DNA of 64,000 nt from Hoeflea sp. (lineage in GTDB: Bacteria; Pseudomonadota; Alphaproteobacteria; Rhizobiales; Rhizobiaceae). The position numbers and the translations under genes are program-made. The DNA is taken from positions 62,001 through 126,000 of the forward strand of contig JAHRFE010000029.1 of the NCBI GenBank assembly GCA_019084245.1, in the 5' to 3' direction. Shown in pieces: positions 49,086 to 53,800 of this stretch (its first letter is position 1; the number at the start of each line of letters is the position of its first letter). The notes below the pieces were generated by a model that saw only the letters and a program-made list of their open reading frames with translations, searched no databases and was not told the DNA's origin.

Positions 49086-49979
49086 GTGAACTGGGACGAC
49101 ATCAGGGTGTTTCTGGCTGTCGCCCGCGCCGGGCAGATCCTGGCGGCCGCCAAACGGCTGGGGATCAACCACGCCACCGCCGCGCGGCGGATCACCTCGC
49201 TCGAGACCGCGCTCGGCGCGCAGCTGGTGGTTCGCCGCACCAATGGCTGCGGGCTCACCGGGGAAGGCGAAGCCTTCCTGGCGCACGCCGAACGGATCGA
49301 AGCCGAGATGCTGGCGGCGCAGGCAAATCTCGGCCGCACCGACAGCGCCATCTCGGGCACCGTGCGGATCGGCGCGCCGGACGGGTTCGGGGTCTCGTTC
49401 CTGGCGCCGCGGCTGGGCGCACTGATCGCCAAACATCCCGACCTGAGATTGCAACTGGTGCCGGTTCCGCGCAGCTTTTCGCTGCCGCAACGCGAGGCCG
49501 ACATCGCCATCACCGTCGAACGCCCTGCGGAGGGCCGGCTGGTGGCGCGCAAGCTGGTCGACTATTCCCTGTCGCTCTATGCCTCGCGGGCCTATCTGGA
49601 GCAGCACGGAACGCCAACCCGGACGGAGCAGCTCAAGGACCACCGGCTGATCAGCTATGTGGAAGACCTGATCTTCTCGCCGTCGCTTCATTTCACCCGC
49701 GAGATCCTGCGCAACTGGACGGCGCAGTTTGAGATATCAAGCGCCACCGGACAGACCGAGGCGGTGCGGTCGGGCGCCGGCATTGCCGTTCTGCATGATT
49801 ACATTGCGGGGCTCGATCCGGATCTGGTGCGGCTGCTGCCGGAGCACCGCATCGAGCGGTCCTACTATATGGTCTATCATGAATCCGCCCGGGATCTCGC
49901 GCGGGTGCGCACCGTGGCCGATCACATCTCCACTGTGGCGCAGGCGCACAAGGCACATTTCTTTCCCGTCGACAGGTGA
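49086..49979 (+). CDS. LysR-family transcriptional regulator
   Basis: A 297-residue LTTR starting with GTG (MNWDDIRVFLAVARAGQILA), HTH around residues 17-40 (AAKRLGINHATAARRITSLE) and effector domain from about 90 (GTVRIGAPDGFGVSFLAPRL). It lies six bases after purU in the same direction, probably co-transcribed. It belongs to the LTTR group with WDD at the N-terminus; targets are unknown. Confidence 0.85.
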   Translation: MNWDDIRVFLAVARAGQILAAAKRLGINHATAARRITSLETALGAQLVVRRTNGCGLTGEGEAFLAHAERIEAEMLAAQANLGRTDSAISGTVRIGAPDGFGVSFLAPRLGALIAKHPDLRLQLVPVPRSFSLPQREADIAITVERPAEGRLVARKLVDYSLSLYASRAYLEQHGTPTRTEQLKDHRLISYVEDLIFSPSLHFTREILRNWTAQFEISSATGQTEAVRSGAGIAVLHDYIAGLDPDLVRLLPEHRIERSYYMVYHESARDLARVRTVADHISTVAQAHKAHFFPVDR

Positions 49980-50057
49980 GATCCCCCTGTTGCACACAAG
50001 CAGGCGGGAGCGAGGCCGTCAGCTTGGTCCGGGTATCTCCATCGCGGTGAACCCTGA

Positions 50058-50205
50058 AAAACAAAACGCCTGCCGGGTCAGACCCGACAGGCGCTTGTAC
50101 TTCGTCGCGACATCCAGACCGGTGCTTGGGAGGAGGATCCCGGCGCGGATAGTCTCGACTACTGCCATGCCGAACTGGGAGGAGGAGGTGTTCGACGTGG
50201 CGTTG
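50058..50205 (-). ncRNA. Candidate trans-acting sRNA with two anti-Shine-Dalgarno loops (NfeR1/CcsR-like)
   Basis: The minus strand carries two CCTCCTCCC motifs (complements of 50177-50185 and 50128-50136), each placed in an apical loop: the first between CGAAC and GTTCG (50171-50175 with 50190-50194), the second between CCGG arms plus an ATCC/GGAT pair (50112-50122 with 50140-50150). It ends in a strong stem (50067-50079 with 50081-50093, one mismatch) followed on the minus strand by TTTTGTTTTT. A weak promoter TTGCAA-N17-CATATC (complement of 50239-50211) would start transcription near 50205. This layout matches rhizobial NfeR1 (alpha-r14) and Rhodobacter CcsR RNAs, which pair with ribosome-binding sites of transporter and metabolic mRNAs. 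The 71-codon open frame here is shadow. Confidence 0.7.
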
Positions 50206-50310
50206 ACACAGATATGGTATAGTTCATGCTGCATTGCAATAGGATTCTTCAGGAATCTTTATCTTTTGGTAAACTCGCATAAGCCGCTGTAACTTTTGGT
50301 GTTTTGGCTT

Positions 50311-50365: not shown

Positions 50366-50390
50366 AAACCGGGGCGCGCGGCCCCGGTTT
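50366..50390 (-). terminator. Rho-independent terminator of the xylose transport operon
   Basis: AAACCGGGGC (50366-50375) pairs perfectly with GCCCCGGTTT (50381-50390) around GCGCG; on the minus strand it is followed by TTTTTTGTTG. It lies 32 bases past the ATPase stop and is the clearest intrinsic terminator in the window. Confidence 0.9.
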
Positions 50391-50421: not shown

Positions 50422-51198
50422 TCAGGCGAATTGAATCGCCCCCGGCCCCGGGATCCCGTTTGGCGGGCATTTACCGGCGATGATCATGCCGAGCAGATCG
50501 TCTTCGGACACATCTGCCACCTTGACGGTGCCGACGAGCTGACCGTTCTTCATGACATTGGCCCGGTCGCACATCGCCTTGACCTGGTGAATGTCGTGAT
50601 CGATCAGGAAGATGCCGATCCCTTCGGATTTGAGTTGCTCGATCAGTTCGGCCACCATCCGGGTCTCCTGTACGCCGAGCGCCGCCGTGGGCTCATCCAT
50701 GATCAGGATCTTGGCATTGAAATAGACCGCACGGGCAATGGCGACCGATTGCCGCTGACCGCCCGAAAGACCTGCAACCGGCGTATGGAACCGACGGAAG
50801 TTCGGATTGAGGCGCTTCATGATCTTGCGCGTCTCGGCCTCCATCAAGGCGTCGTCGACAAAGCCGAGCGGCGTTGTCAGTTCGCGCCCGAGAAACAGGT
50901 TCGATGCGGCATCCAGATTGTCGGCGAGCGCCAGATACTGGTAGATCGTCTCGATCTGGTGGTTGCGGGCGTCGCGCGGGTTGTTGATTACGGCCTTCTT
51001 GCCGTTGATGAAGATCTCGCCGCCATCGCGCGGCAAGGCCCCAGACAGCATTTTCATCAGCACGGATTTACCGGCGCCGTTGTGCCCCAAGACCCCGACG
51101 ACCTCGCCGGGATAAAGATCGATGGTGACGTGATCGACGGCCTTGATGCCGCCGAACGACTTCTGCATGTCGCGCATTTCAACGAGAGGCGTGGTCAT
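50422..51198 (-). CDS. xylG: Sugar (xylose-type) ABC transporter ATP-binding protein, half-size
   Basis: A 258-residue ABC ATPase: Walker A GHNGAGKSVLMKML, signature LSGGQRQSVAIARAV, Walker B ILIMDEPTAALG, switch FLIDHDIHQV. E. coli XylG has two fused ABC domains (about 513 residues); this one is a single domain, like FrcA and many rhizobial sugar transporters, and would act as a homodimer. The end KCPPNGIPGPGAIQFA is short and not diagnostic. It is the last gene of the leftward operon; its ATG overlaps the permease stop and it is followed by an intrinsic terminator. Confidence 0.82.
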   Translation of the reverse strand: MTTPLVEMRDMQKSFGGIKAVDHVTIDLYPGEVVGVLGHNGAGKSVLMKMLSGALPRDGGEIFINGKKAVINNPRDARNHQIETIYQYLALADNLDAASNLFLGRELTTPLGFVDDALMEAETRKIMKRLNPNFRRFHTPVAGLSGGQRQSVAIARAVYFNAKILIMDEPTAALGVQETRMVAELIEQLKSEGIGIFLIDHDIHQVKAMCDRANVMKNGQLVGTVKVADVSEDDLLGMIIAGKCPPNGIPGPGAIQFA

Positions 51199-52496
51199 GT
51201 CTTGTCTCCCGTCCGGCGCCTGTAGACGATGTCGATGAAGACCGCGAGAACCAGCACGGAACCCACGACCATGTTCTGGTAGGGCGCGTCGACGCCAACC
51301 ATCGCCATGCCCGATTGCAGGCTCTGCATGATCAGCGCGCCCAGGATCGCGCCGTAGATGGTGCCCATGCCGCCTGCGAGCGCCGTGCCGCCGATGACCG
51401 CGGCCGCGATGACGCGCAGTTCGTCGAGCGTGCCGATGTCATTGGAATGGAAAGTTTGCCGCGACGAGGCCACAACGGCGGAAATGGCGCACAAGACGCC
51501 CATGATCGCGAAGATCTTCACCGTGAGCAGGCGCGTGTTGATGCCCGCCAGTGCCGCCGCTTCAGGGTTGCCGCCTGTGGCGAAAATATACCGTCCGAGC
51601 CGGGTGCGCTGGGCGATGACCGTCATGGTAATGGCGATCACGATCAGCACAAGCACCGAGATCGGCAATCCGTAGCCCTGAACCAGGCCTTCGGGCATGA
51701 TCTCGCCGCGCGCCTCGAACATCCGCTGCAGCCGCGCCGTGGGAATTTCATAGGCATTGAGGACCGCCACGAAGCCGGCAATTGCTCCCGCGATGATCAG
51801 GCCGATGATCACTTCGGCCCAGACCGGCTTGACCGGAAACTCATGCAGAACCTTGTTTCTGCGGGACCGGAACAGCGCGTAGAATGAGGCCATGATAGCG
51901 ATGGCGGCGATAATCCAGCTCCAGAACTCGCCGAGCGTGCCGTTGATGCCGCCGAAAAGCTGGAAATTCGCATCAAGCGGACCGATCGTCTGGCCCTTTG
52001 TCAGGTGCCAGGAGACATTGCGCCATACCAGAAAACCACCCAGCGTGACAATGAAGGCAGGGATTGTCAGATAGCCGATCAGCCAGCCTTGGAAGGCGCC
52101 GATCACCAGTCCTGTCATCACACCGACCAGGATCGCGATCGGCATGGTCAGCGGATGGTTGAGACCCAGTCCCAGCCATTCCGGCGTGACCACGGTCTGC
52201 ATCATCGCCATCATCGCCGAGCAGGTCGCGAGCAGCGACCCGACCGAGAGGTCGATATTTCGGGTGACGATCACAAACACCATTCCCGTCGCCATGATCG
52301 CGACCGACGCGGTCTGGATCGACAGGTTGAAGAGGTTGCGCGGCGTCATAAAACGCCCGTCGGTCAGAAAATTGAAGATCAGGCAGATGACGATGAAGGC
52401 GCCGATCATGCCGATAAGGCGGGTGTCAAGTTCAAGCGCAGCAAAGAAATTGCGTGGCTTCGCCGGCGCACTCGCAACTGGGGACGTCTCGGTCAT
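51195..52496 (-). CDS. xylH: Xylose-type ABC transporter permease
   Basis: A 433-residue membrane protein of the RbsC/XylH family with about ten or more TM segments. The N-terminal MTETSPVASAPAKPRNFF is cytoplasmic; family sequences include FNLSIQTASVAIMATGMVFVIVTRNIDLSVGS (conserved sugar-permease motif) and the EAA-like LAGINTRLLTVKIFAIMGVLCAISA. A periplasmic/cytoplasmic insertion (about 200-290) makes it longer than RbsC, as in XylH. ATG 52496 was chosen; a TTG/ATG ten codons upstream lacks support. Between it and xylF is a hairpin. Confidence 0.85.
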   Translation of the reverse strand: MTETSPVASAPAKPRNFFAALELDTRLIGMIGAFIVICLIFNFLTDGRFMTPRNLFNLSIQTASVAIMATGMVFVIVTRNIDLSVGSLLATCSAMMAMMQTVVTPEWLGLGLNHPLTMPIAILVGVMTGLVIGAFQGWLIGYLTIPAFIVTLGGFLVWRNVSWHLTKGQTIGPLDANFQLFGGINGTLGEFWSWIIAAIAIMASFYALFRSRRNKVLHEFPVKPVWAEVIIGLIIAGAIAGFVAVLNAYEIPTARLQRMFEARGEIMPEGLVQGYGLPISVLVLIVIAITMTVIAQRTRLGRYIFATGGNPEAAALAGINTRLLTVKIFAIMGVLCAISAVVASSRQTFHSNDIGTLDELRVIAAAVIGGTALAGGMGTIYGAILGALIMQSLQSGMAMVGVDAPYQNMVVGSVLVLAVFIDIVYRRRTGDKT

Positions 52497-52524
52497 GGCC
52501 GTAATCCAGGTAATGGGTAGCAAC

Positions 52525-52552
52525 ACGTCCCCACCCGGAAGGATGGGGACGT
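52525..52552 (-). terminator. Hairpin between xylF and xylH
   Basis: ACGTCCCCA (52525-52533) pairs with TGGGGACGT (52544-52552), with extra GC pairs toward the loop, 30 bases after the binding-protein stop. It is the fourth binding-protein/permease hairpin of the window and should favour xylF mRNA. Confidence 0.7.
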
Positions 52553-52582: not shown

Positions 52583-53617
52583 TTAGTTACAGGGTGCCGG
52601 GCCACCGGAGACACCCTGGCACAGGGCTTCCTTGCTGATCCAGCCAGCATCGACGACCGTGGCCAAATTTTCCTTGGTGATCGGAACCGGGGCAAGGAAC
52701 AACGCGGTCATCGTGGTGCCGCCGGGCGACGTCCACTCGGTGGTGCCTTCGATGTCGGACATCGCCGTGCCGTCTGCGAGCTTGGCGGCGATTTCGCCGG
52801 CATTCTTGCCGAGTTCACGGGCGTCCTTCCAGACGCTGACGGTCTGGGTGCCACTGGCGACACGGTTGAGCGCAGCGTGGTCGCCGTCCTGGCCGGAAAC
52901 CGGAATGCCTTGCATACCCTGGGCGGTCAGTGCCGCCACGGCGCCGCCGGCCGTACCGTCATTGGAGGCAACCACGGCATCGACCTTGTTGTCGGCTGCG
53001 GTCAGGATCTGTTCCATGTTGCGCTGGGCGTTGGCCGGAAGCCAGCCGTCGGTATAGGCCTCGCCAACGATCGTGATGTCGCCGGAATCGATGGCCGCCT
53101 GCAGGATTTCCTGCTGGCCGCCACGAAGGAAGTCGGCGTTCGGATCGGTCGGTGACCCCTTGATCATCACATAATTGCCCTTCGGCGCGGCGGCGAACAC
53201 GGCGCGCGCCTGCATGCGGCCAACTTCGACGTTGTCGAAAGTCAGGTAGAAGGCGCGGCTGTCTTCGATCAGACGGTCATAGGCGACAACCGGAATGCCT
53301 TCGTCGGCGGCAGCTGTCACGGCCGGAATAATCGCCTGGGTGTCCTGGGCGAGAATGATCAGCGCGTCGACGCCCTGCGCCATCAGGCTTTCCACATCAG
53401 ATAGCTGCTTGGCGGCAGACGATTGCGCATCGGTTGACACGTAGGTGTCGCCAGCGGCCTCGATAGAGGCCTTCATTGCGGCTTCATCGGTCTTCCAGCG
53501 CTCTTCCTGAAAATTCGACCACGATACGCCGATAGTCTTGCCTTCAGCCAACGCGGCTCCGGCCATTCCAGCTGTCATGACGACGCCAGCAACGAGCGTG
53601 CTGAGTAACTTTTTCAT
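52583..53617 (-). CDS. xylF: D-xylose ABC transporter substrate-binding protein
   Basis: A 344-residue periplasmic sugar-binding protein with a signal peptide (MKKLLSTLVAGVVMTAGMAG, then AALA-EGKTIG). The mature part matches XylF: WSNFQEERWKTDEAAMKASIEA, PVVAYDRLIEDSRAFYLTFDNVEVGRMQA and VVASNDGTAGGAVAAL. GGAGG lies six bases before ATG 53617. It is first in the leftward operon and faces a ROK regulator. Ligand xylose is inferred from family similarity and regulator type. Confidence 0.87.
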   Translation of the reverse strand: MKKLLSTLVAGVVMTAGMAGAALAEGKTIGVSWSNFQEERWKTDEAAMKASIEAAGDTYVSTDAQSSAAKQLSDVESLMAQGVDALIILAQDTQAIIPAVTAAADEGIPVVAYDRLIEDSRAFYLTFDNVEVGRMQARAVFAAAPKGNYVMIKGSPTDPNADFLRGGQQEILQAAIDSGDITIVGEAYTDGWLPANAQRNMEQILTAADNKVDAVVASNDGTAGGAVAALTAQGMQGIPVSGQDGDHAALNRVASGTQTVSVWKDARELGKNAGEIAAKLADGTAMSDIEGTTEWTSPGGTTMTALFLAPVPITKENLATVVDAGWISKEALCQGVSGGPAPCN

Positions 53618-53768: not shown

Positions 53769-53800
53769 GTTGCTGCAATGCAACGTGAATTTTGCATTGC
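53769..53800. promoter_or_regulatory. Candidate operator between xylF and the ROK regulator
   Basis: GTTGC-TGCAAT-GCAAC (53769-53784) is a perfect 5-bp inverted repeat, followed by TTTGCATTGC (53791-53800), with more TTGCA cores in the same 200-base divergent region (for example around 53741). ROK repressors bind such AT-rich dyads, so autoregulation and xylF repression are likely. Promoter boxes are not clear. Confidence 0.4.

Follow-up and report, generated by a model that had tools for sequence, protein, structure and literature searches.

Does a short interval behind a sugar-transport operon of Hoeflea sp. encode an anti-Shine-Dalgarno small RNA (sRNA), and, if so, which regulator controls the RNA and which messages does it address? 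Such sRNAs are widespread in Alphaproteobacteria, and, to our knowledge, the inputs and targets of individual copies have been worked out in few cases. The interval lies in a 64,000-nucleotide stretch of DNA (hereafter, the window), in which an original prediction made from the sequence alone had placed an sRNA on the minus strand at 50058..50205. The reading preferred here, which is fairly probable, is that of a trans-acting anti-Shine-Dalgarno sRNA of the ar14/NfeR1, or "cuckoo", kind that is probably repressed by PhaR and would mask the messages of sugar-uptake genes.

The small RNA gene, its fold and its conservation

A genuine sRNA gene of about 151 nt almost certainly occupies positions 50056..50206 of the minus strand, as delimited by a block conserved in 17 orthologs, the predicted fold, covariation and an alignment to the Rfam family ar14. 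The boundaries judged best run from TCAACGCC at 50206 to TTTTGTTTTTC at 50056, with the 5' end placed from the conserved TCAACGCC and the position of the predicted -10 element. Two identical anti-Shine-Dalgarno motifs with the sequence CCTCCTCCC, each in a hairpin loop, had been proposed and were recovered in full. Motif 1 (50177..50185) lies in hairpin 1 (50164..50201) and motif 2 (50128..50136) in hairpin 2 (50104..50159, with an outer and an inner stem); both hairpins have the loop CCUCCUCCC, and the motifs have mean unpaired probabilities of 1.00 and 0.95, respectively. The strong U-rich terminator was likewise borne out, as an intrinsic terminator at 50057..50096 with a 15-pair stem (50096-50064) followed by a T-rich tract that is present on the minus strand only; its loop is free of the CCUCCUCCC motif. 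Over the 148 nt originally delimited, the predicted fold reaches -67.3 kcal/mol (z = -6.1), and none of 200 shuffles was as low.

Within the 64-kb window, CCTCCTCCC occurs twice, both times on the minus strand of the sRNA and nowhere else. Because 12 of 100 shuffles of the window contain two or more such words somewhere in 64 kb, this count is weak evidence by itself, and chance occurrence of the motif pair was rejected on the basis of conservation. The surrounding DNA had been called gene-free, which stands insofar as no convincing gene covers the region, although mechanical plus-strand open reading frames (ORFs) do cross it (e.g., 49729-50292, 187 aa). The lengths of the 17 homologs (150-156 nt) do not all differ by multiples of three, which argues against a conserved reading frame; on account of these indels, a coding origin was rejected.

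Conservation of the loops and stems in relatives, on which the original prediction had staked itself, was found in both parts, with the loops present in 17/17 orthologs and compensatory changes in the stems. In a blastn search of 61 genomes, the region was present in 17 of 18 from the genus and in none of the 43 others, the single genus genome without a match being a 75% complete assembly (G008). Every one of the 17 orthologous loci has exactly two motifs, and 25 nt around loop 2 inside hairpin 2 (CCGGGATCCTCCTCCCAAGCACCGG) are invariant across them. This exact 25-mer was found in 12 stretches among GTDB species genomes, all of them Hoeflea, in a search that may omit records from the genome of the window or from genomes near to it. 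Over the 17-sequence alignment, the stems comprise 37 pairs that are standard in 98.3% of cells, and 13 of these pairs show two-sided changes, compared with 4.6 (sd 1.3) in shuffled alignments, none of 500 of which reached 13. Four of five covariation measures exceeded all 500 shuffles, and the fifth (further pair types) was reached by two of them; slid controls gave at most 40.1% of cells paired and six pairs with two-sided changes. Hairpin 1 contributes 10 pairs, five with two-sided changes (98.2% of cells paired), while helix 3, which adjoins loop 2, is nearly invariant and shows no covariation of its own in this alignment.

With respect to known families, an Rfam scan at the gathering threshold returned no match anywhere in the window. 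The proposed covariance search with ar14 (RF02344) gave a full-length alignment, end to end at 50206-50061 over model positions 1-123, with a score that falls short at 38.2 bits (E = 1.3e-5 for 521 bases searched; gathering cut-off, 58.8 bits). Homology over the full model thus relates the RNA to ar14, whereas neither its score nor its motif number (two, instead of three CCUCCUCCC hairpins including the terminator loop) fits canonical membership. Other Rfam candidates (ctRNA_pGA1, two MIR families and SorX) were discarded as below their own cut-offs, with ctRNA and MIR918 falling on the terminator, and none of the 4227 families scanned is listed under the name CcsR. Across the 61 genomes, 16 of the 17 Hoeflea orthologs score 33.6-45.6 bits against ar14, all below the cut-off, and the G009 ortholog is not listed at E <= 0.001. 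An ar14 copy above the cut-off is present in every genus genome but G007 (77% complete). In the window's own genome, the best match (97.3 bits) is such a canonical copy on contig C39, whose three hairpins bear three motifs and which a DUF1127 gene (PF06568) immediately precedes; the RNA described here ranks second, and the third match scores 21.4 bits.

A covariance model, R1, was built from the 17 Hoeflea orthologs and searched against 199 genomes of the family Rhizobiaceae at E <= 0.001. It matched 97 of them, three of which are Hoeflea, with 170-179 bits in these three and at most 52.5 bits elsewhere. At least 10 of the R1 places outside the xyl locus coincide by coordinates with ar14 places. 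The weak matches are not all ar14, some being opposite strands of one hairpin, and R1 also matches the plus strand of this sRNA's own terminator at 27.1 bits. The computed anatomy, structure and family relation of the sRNA are strong: it is an ar14 relative that stands apart by its motif-free terminator and, judging by these comparisons, a two-loop Hoeflea paralog of that genome's canonical ar14. It very probably works in an anti-Shine-Dalgarno mode.

Genomic setting, promoter and PhaR-type boxes

The sRNA follows an operon on the same strand that consists of xylF, encoding a xylose-binding protein (52583..53617; TIGR02634, 468.8 bits, cut-off 389.55), a xylH-type permease gene (51195..52526; BPD_transp_2, NCBIfam matches below cut-offs) and a xylG-type ABC ATPase gene (50422..51198; Pfam ABC_tran, best NCBIfam matches being sugar ATPases below cut-offs). 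A LysR-family regulator gene (49086..49979, plus strand; Pfam) converges with the sRNA. Between xylG and the sRNA, a terminator-like site (50366..50390, minus strand) separates the latter from the upstream operon. In all 17 genomes, xylG precedes the sRNA on the same strand, and a hairpin with a T run behind it is found 3' of xylG; the distance from the xylG stop to the sRNA start is 191-216 nt in 16 of them and 1683 nt in G009. In 15 of the 17 loci, no more than 1.5 kb separates the convergent LysR gene from the sRNA; the gene lies about 2 kb off in G009 and is not within the stretch fetched for G012. Seven of the 17 genomes have a divergent version of xylFHG (xylF 61-64% identical), with a well-conserved sRNA still behind the operon.

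Upstream of the sRNA, the alignment decays except for the blocks CATAT, TCAACGCC and a TTGCAATGCAGCAT-like element, together with a looser palindrome-like TTTAYC-N4-GATAAA. The elements assigned in the window are a predicted -10 element, CCATAT (50212..50217, minus strand; CATAT invariant in 17), a PhaR-type box, TTGCAATGCAGCA (50227..50239, minus strand), that overlaps the predicted -35 region, and, upstream of this box, the palindrome-like TTTACCAAAAGATAAA (50258..50273, minus strand), which is partly conserved and reads TTTATC-N4-GATAAA in some other genomes. A generic sigma-70 scan found no promoter here, so the promoter call rests on conservation. From the conservation of both promoter and terminator, we infer that the sRNA is transcribed, and independently so.

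The PhaR-type box is new relative to the original prediction. The footprint-based PhaR consensus, the 12-mer TGCRNYGCASMA (PMC6201568), occurs at one fixed promoter position in 16 of 17 orthologs, and G007 misses the full 12-mer; the PhaR core YGCRNYGCR is found at the box in all 17, and in 17/17 the box agrees with the S. meliloti PhaR motif described in PMC12542648 at 18-21 of its 21 positions. The promoter thereby has the consensus box expected of a PhaR-regulon member. The core of the Hoeflea box, TGCAATGCAGCAT, is identical to that of the S. meliloti SMc03815 site, which is listed as bound efficiently in electrophoretic mobility shift assays (EMSA; PMC12542648, Table 3). According to the same source, SMc03815 belongs to a PhaR-activated proteome module, yet its promoter fusion behaved as PhaR-repressed. 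The EMSA-efficient phaP1 site in that table contains TGCACTGCACAAAT, which is also the word before the Hoeflea DUF1127-ar14 locus. Control of the sRNA promoter by PhaR is modestly favored by these sequence matches, and the position of the box over the predicted -35 region suggests repression as its sign.

The window's genome encodes a PhaR-family protein (PF07879, 106.5 bits), and boxes of this type recur across it. The pattern TTGCRNYGCASMA occurs 29 times, versus five for the reversed pattern. By eye, its sites include positions upstream of the phasin gene, two DUF1127 or DUF1127-like genes and xylF, as well as before genes resembling those for sugar- and polyamine-binding proteins and GlnK. 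A crude test flagged 12 of the 29 as lying in long same-strand ORFs, one of which (L164) proved on inspection to be upstream of a sugar-binding-protein gene. A box at G000:C40:750400-750412 (L166), TTGCGCTGCAGCA, upstream of a GlnK/PII-like gene hints at a possible carbon-nitrogen link. The pattern TTGCANTGCA was counted 32 times versus four for its reversal, with several sites counted on both strands. One such site, where TGCAATGCAACA is one position off the 12-mer, precedes a gene for a PhaZ-type depolymerase (TIGR01849; 226.6 bits over its first 160 residues, with a whole-protein cut-off of 300.75). The 12-mer lies upstream of a phasin gene (Phasin_2) in 18/18 genomes, and, around the sRNA locus, a total of 403,732 strand-bases from the genus contain it 27 times, 15 of them being the sRNA boxes, and the reversed word not once.

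Similar boxes accompany canonical ar14. In Hoeflea, the 450 nt upstream of canonical ar14 contain the 12-mer in 16 of 17 loci; among other genera, the upstream flank has it in 7 of 13 loci of a first set (sense strand; reversed control, 0/30 over all its 30 loci) and in 9 of 25 of a second set (10 on either strand; reversed control, 0/25). The second set comprised 27 loci, two of which lacked a motif close to the centre and were left out, and both sets include genomes G020 and G033. A regular-expression finder for DUF1127 genes was positive at 16/17 Hoeflea loci, 0/13 others and 3/25 of the second set. The downstream flank, meant as a control, also contains the 12-mer (12/17 Hoeflea, 5/13 and 5/25 others), which makes the box characteristic of the neighborhood rather than of the sRNA 5' side alone. 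In the window's genome, the three-motif ar14 (L017, 1939-2309; G000:C39:89938-90308) follows a DUF1127 gene with an upstream box, TTGCACTGCACAA, and the box downstream of ar14 belongs to a second DUF1127-like gene, so named by resemblance, which comes after the ar14 copy (L017, 2490-2720; start 2578; same box at 2490). Outside Hoeflea, a role of PhaR at ar14 loci is suggestive only. A broader reading is that PhaR directly gates anti-Shine-Dalgarno sRNAs at both Hoeflea loci and at some ar14 loci in other genera of the family, by which carbon reserves would act back on nutrient import through RNAs covering ribosome-binding sites, and that the xyl copy has co-evolved with xylF. It is tentative, with the odds somewhat against it.

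Three other explanations of the locus can be weighed against these observations. The same anti-Shine-Dalgarno sRNA might answer to LsrB/VtlR, a LysR-type regulator, as do rhizobial NfeR1 and AbcR1, rather than to PhaR. The NfeR1 promoter has been described as bound by LsrB, with TGCA-N6-GCAT as the proposed site, and NfeR1 of S. meliloti as LsrB-activated; moreover, the letters of the box TTGCAATGCAGCA also fit the loose LysR pattern T-N11-A, and the reported Brucella VtlR motif CAATGCAGCCATGCA has CAATGCAGC in common with it. The VtlR consensus GCAT-N3-TG-N3-T, however, which an LsrB/VtlR-regulon member should have in its promoter, is absent from 16 of the 17 promoters, whereas the PhaR 12-mer fits 16 of 17. 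The one match (L046) is shifted relative to the box. On these counts, reading the box as a VtlR consensus was rejected, and LsrB/VtlR control is considered unlikely.

Even less probable is a role of the box as operator for the ROK regulator encoded next to xylF, by which the sRNA would simply belong to the xylose regulon. This idea draws on a near-identical box, TTGCATTGCAGCA (53771..53783, minus strand), before xylF in the window, but that box is present in only 2 of the 17 genomes, boxes of the same consensus precede phasin genes, and the sRNA box core is constant in 17 genomes, in which the best ROK match nearby varies between 31 and 100% in identity; the reading was rejected because of this constancy against ROK variation and the rarity of the xylF box. 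The notion that the RNA is a processed xylFHG 3' UTR, or a mere terminator between convergent genes, accords with its same-strand position after xylG in 17/17 genomes, 191-216 nt past the stop in 16. It is nevertheless highly improbable in view of the terminator-like hairpin that ends xylG in all 17, a -35/-10-like block more conserved than the sequence upstream of it, the restriction of the T-rich tract to the minus strand and the 1683-nt gap in G009. Control of an independent sRNA gene by PhaR remains the preferred reading.

Candidate targets and a proposed circuit

Targets were examined among the leaders of the window, the GGGAGGAGG sites of the genome and two conserved candidates. The original prediction had expected targets close by and had pointed to xylF, whose Shine-Dalgarno site in this genome is CCCGGGAGGATTACATG. 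Across species, this expectation is supported by computed complementarity. In 9 of 17 species, the xylF leader contains CTTGGGAGGA, which forms 10 perfect pairs with UCCUCCCAAG of the invariant loop 2, and the remaining species have nine pairs (two species), seven (five) or six (one). The longest perfect complement of the xylF leader to the sRNA loops averages 8.8 over the 17 species, compared with means of 4.0-5.2 for the neighboring leaders of xylH, xylG, ROK, LysR, purU and ald (n = 11, 17, 5, 15, 8 and 10, respectively, after rows without an N-terminal match or start codon had been dropped, leaving 5-17). The ROK control row (n = 5, mean 4.4) is unreliable, as another start codon was used.

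In this genome, the support from xylF is less distinctive, as its leader, CCCGGGAGGA, has only seven perfect pairs, a number reached or exceeded by 10 of 57 window leaders (seven or eight pairs). By duplex energy, xylF ranks 11th of 49 window leaders and the ROK gene (start 53830) first; both leader sets (49 for energy, 57 ORFs for perfect pairs) come from crude rules and are not a curated gene set. On balance, xylF is the best-supported target candidate, and the cross-species complementarity tips the judgment slightly towards its being a target of the sRNA.

A second candidate is a glucose-type binding-protein gene at C40:568896, with both GGGAGGAGGA and CTGGGAGG as sites in its leader. Its first 134 residues have no Pfam or NCBIfam match, and the name is given by resemblance. 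CTGGGAGG is present in 18/18 genomes and the PhaR 12-mer upstream in 11/18, and the longest perfect complement in its leader is 7-10 in 17/17 genomes (G008, without the sRNA, left out). The minus-strand locus around it (L031, 885-1017; G000:C40:568896-569016) thus combines a sugar-binding-protein-like gene, a PhaR-type box and the Shine-Dalgarno-like GGGAGGAGG and CTGGGAGG, and is largely conserved in the genus. Elsewhere in the genome (L035; G000:C42:6427-6435), the leader of a gene resembling those of monooxygenases has CTGGGAGGAGGA, 12 bases complementary to sRNA loop 1. The 16S rRNA selects the same sequence as the sRNA loops at Shine-Dalgarno sites, and sugar-binding-protein genes may merely possess strong sites of this kind.

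Taken together, the preferred reading may be set out as a circuit. The sRNA would be driven by its own promoter downstream of the xylFHG terminator. When polyhydroxybutyrate (PHB) is low, PhaR (AniA) probably sits on the box over the -35 region and represses the sRNA, whereas under carbon excess PHB granules would titrate PhaR, freeing the promoter and raising the level of the sRNA. Its two loops would then pair with GGGAGGA-type ribosome-binding sites, above all those of xylF and the glucose-type binding-protein gene, and such masking of Shine-Dalgarno sites may block the translation of xylF and other uptake genes, as we infer from complementarity and from the behavior of NfeR1. With a promoter box like that of the PHB-sensing regulator PhaR and loops that could cover ribosome-binding sites, the sRNA may allow stored carbon to restrain the import of sugars.

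An invariant loop, a fixed neighbor with matching complementarity and a promoter box for a known carbon sensor together outline a circuit, open to experimental test, that would connect PHB storage with sugar uptake. Should PhaR act on ar14 loci elsewhere as well, the ar14 family would gain a further input besides LsrB and NtrC. In a limited literature collection, judged by title or the start of the abstract, no report of a link between PhaR and anti-Shine-Dalgarno sRNAs was met, and no paper in it treats Hoeflea, an sRNA and the Shine-Dalgarno sequence together; the study of PhaR in S. meliloti (PMC12542648) does not mention NfeR1 in its main text. A precedent for the input is MmgR of S. meliloti, a PhaR/AniA-repressed sRNA whose promoter contains such a box and is listed as bound efficiently by PhaR; this sRNA reportedly adjusts PHB accumulation, probably by way of phasins (PMC12542648). 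MmgR is another RNA, and the two are likened by the PhaR-type promoter box only.

Comparison with related RNAs

The exposed CCUCCUCCC hairpin loops on variable stems place the Hoeflea sRNA among the cuckoo-type RNAs, a group (RFMSmelA075/RFMSmelA099) that was reportedly described by Reinkensmeier and Giegerich in 2015. Members are described as built of hairpin modules with a common loop motif in variable number (PMC3927594); the Hoeflea RNA has modules with the same loop motif and differs in its motif-free terminator hairpin. The design of NfeR1 and CcsR had been invoked in the original prediction, and this comparison holds for the relation to ar14, but not for the terminator loop, which has no motif, nor for the gene before the sRNA, which is not of the DUF1127 type. 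RS0680a of Rhodobacter sphaeroides is presumably one of the CcsR RNAs. It has two stem-loops with the motif in each (PMC3927594), and the CcsRs are described as processed from an RNA that also carries the DUF1127 gene ccaF1 and starts at an RpoH promoter (PMC10253847). The Hoeflea sRNA resembles CcsR1-4 and RS0680a in its two motif-bearing stem-loops, whereas it is encoded by a solitary gene that has a predicted promoter to itself. Instead of being co-transcribed after a DUF1127 gene, which marks the CcsR/CIN1 type, it has xylG upstream, behind a terminator-like site; in Hoeflea, the DUF1127 arrangement is that of the canonical ar14 copy.

The nearest relative is ar14/NfeR1 of Sinorhizobium meliloti, with which the Hoeflea sRNA shares the CCUCCUCCC hairpin loops, a terminator, the size class and a significant alignment. 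As reported in PMC10746234, NfeR1 uses these motifs to repress ntrB and binding-protein mRNAs. It has three motifs, whereas the xyl-linked sRNA of Hoeflea has two and a long second hairpin; and while NfeR1 is reported with LsrB and NtrC sites, the Hoeflea sRNA is tied to xylG and has a PhaR-type box at its predicted -35 region.
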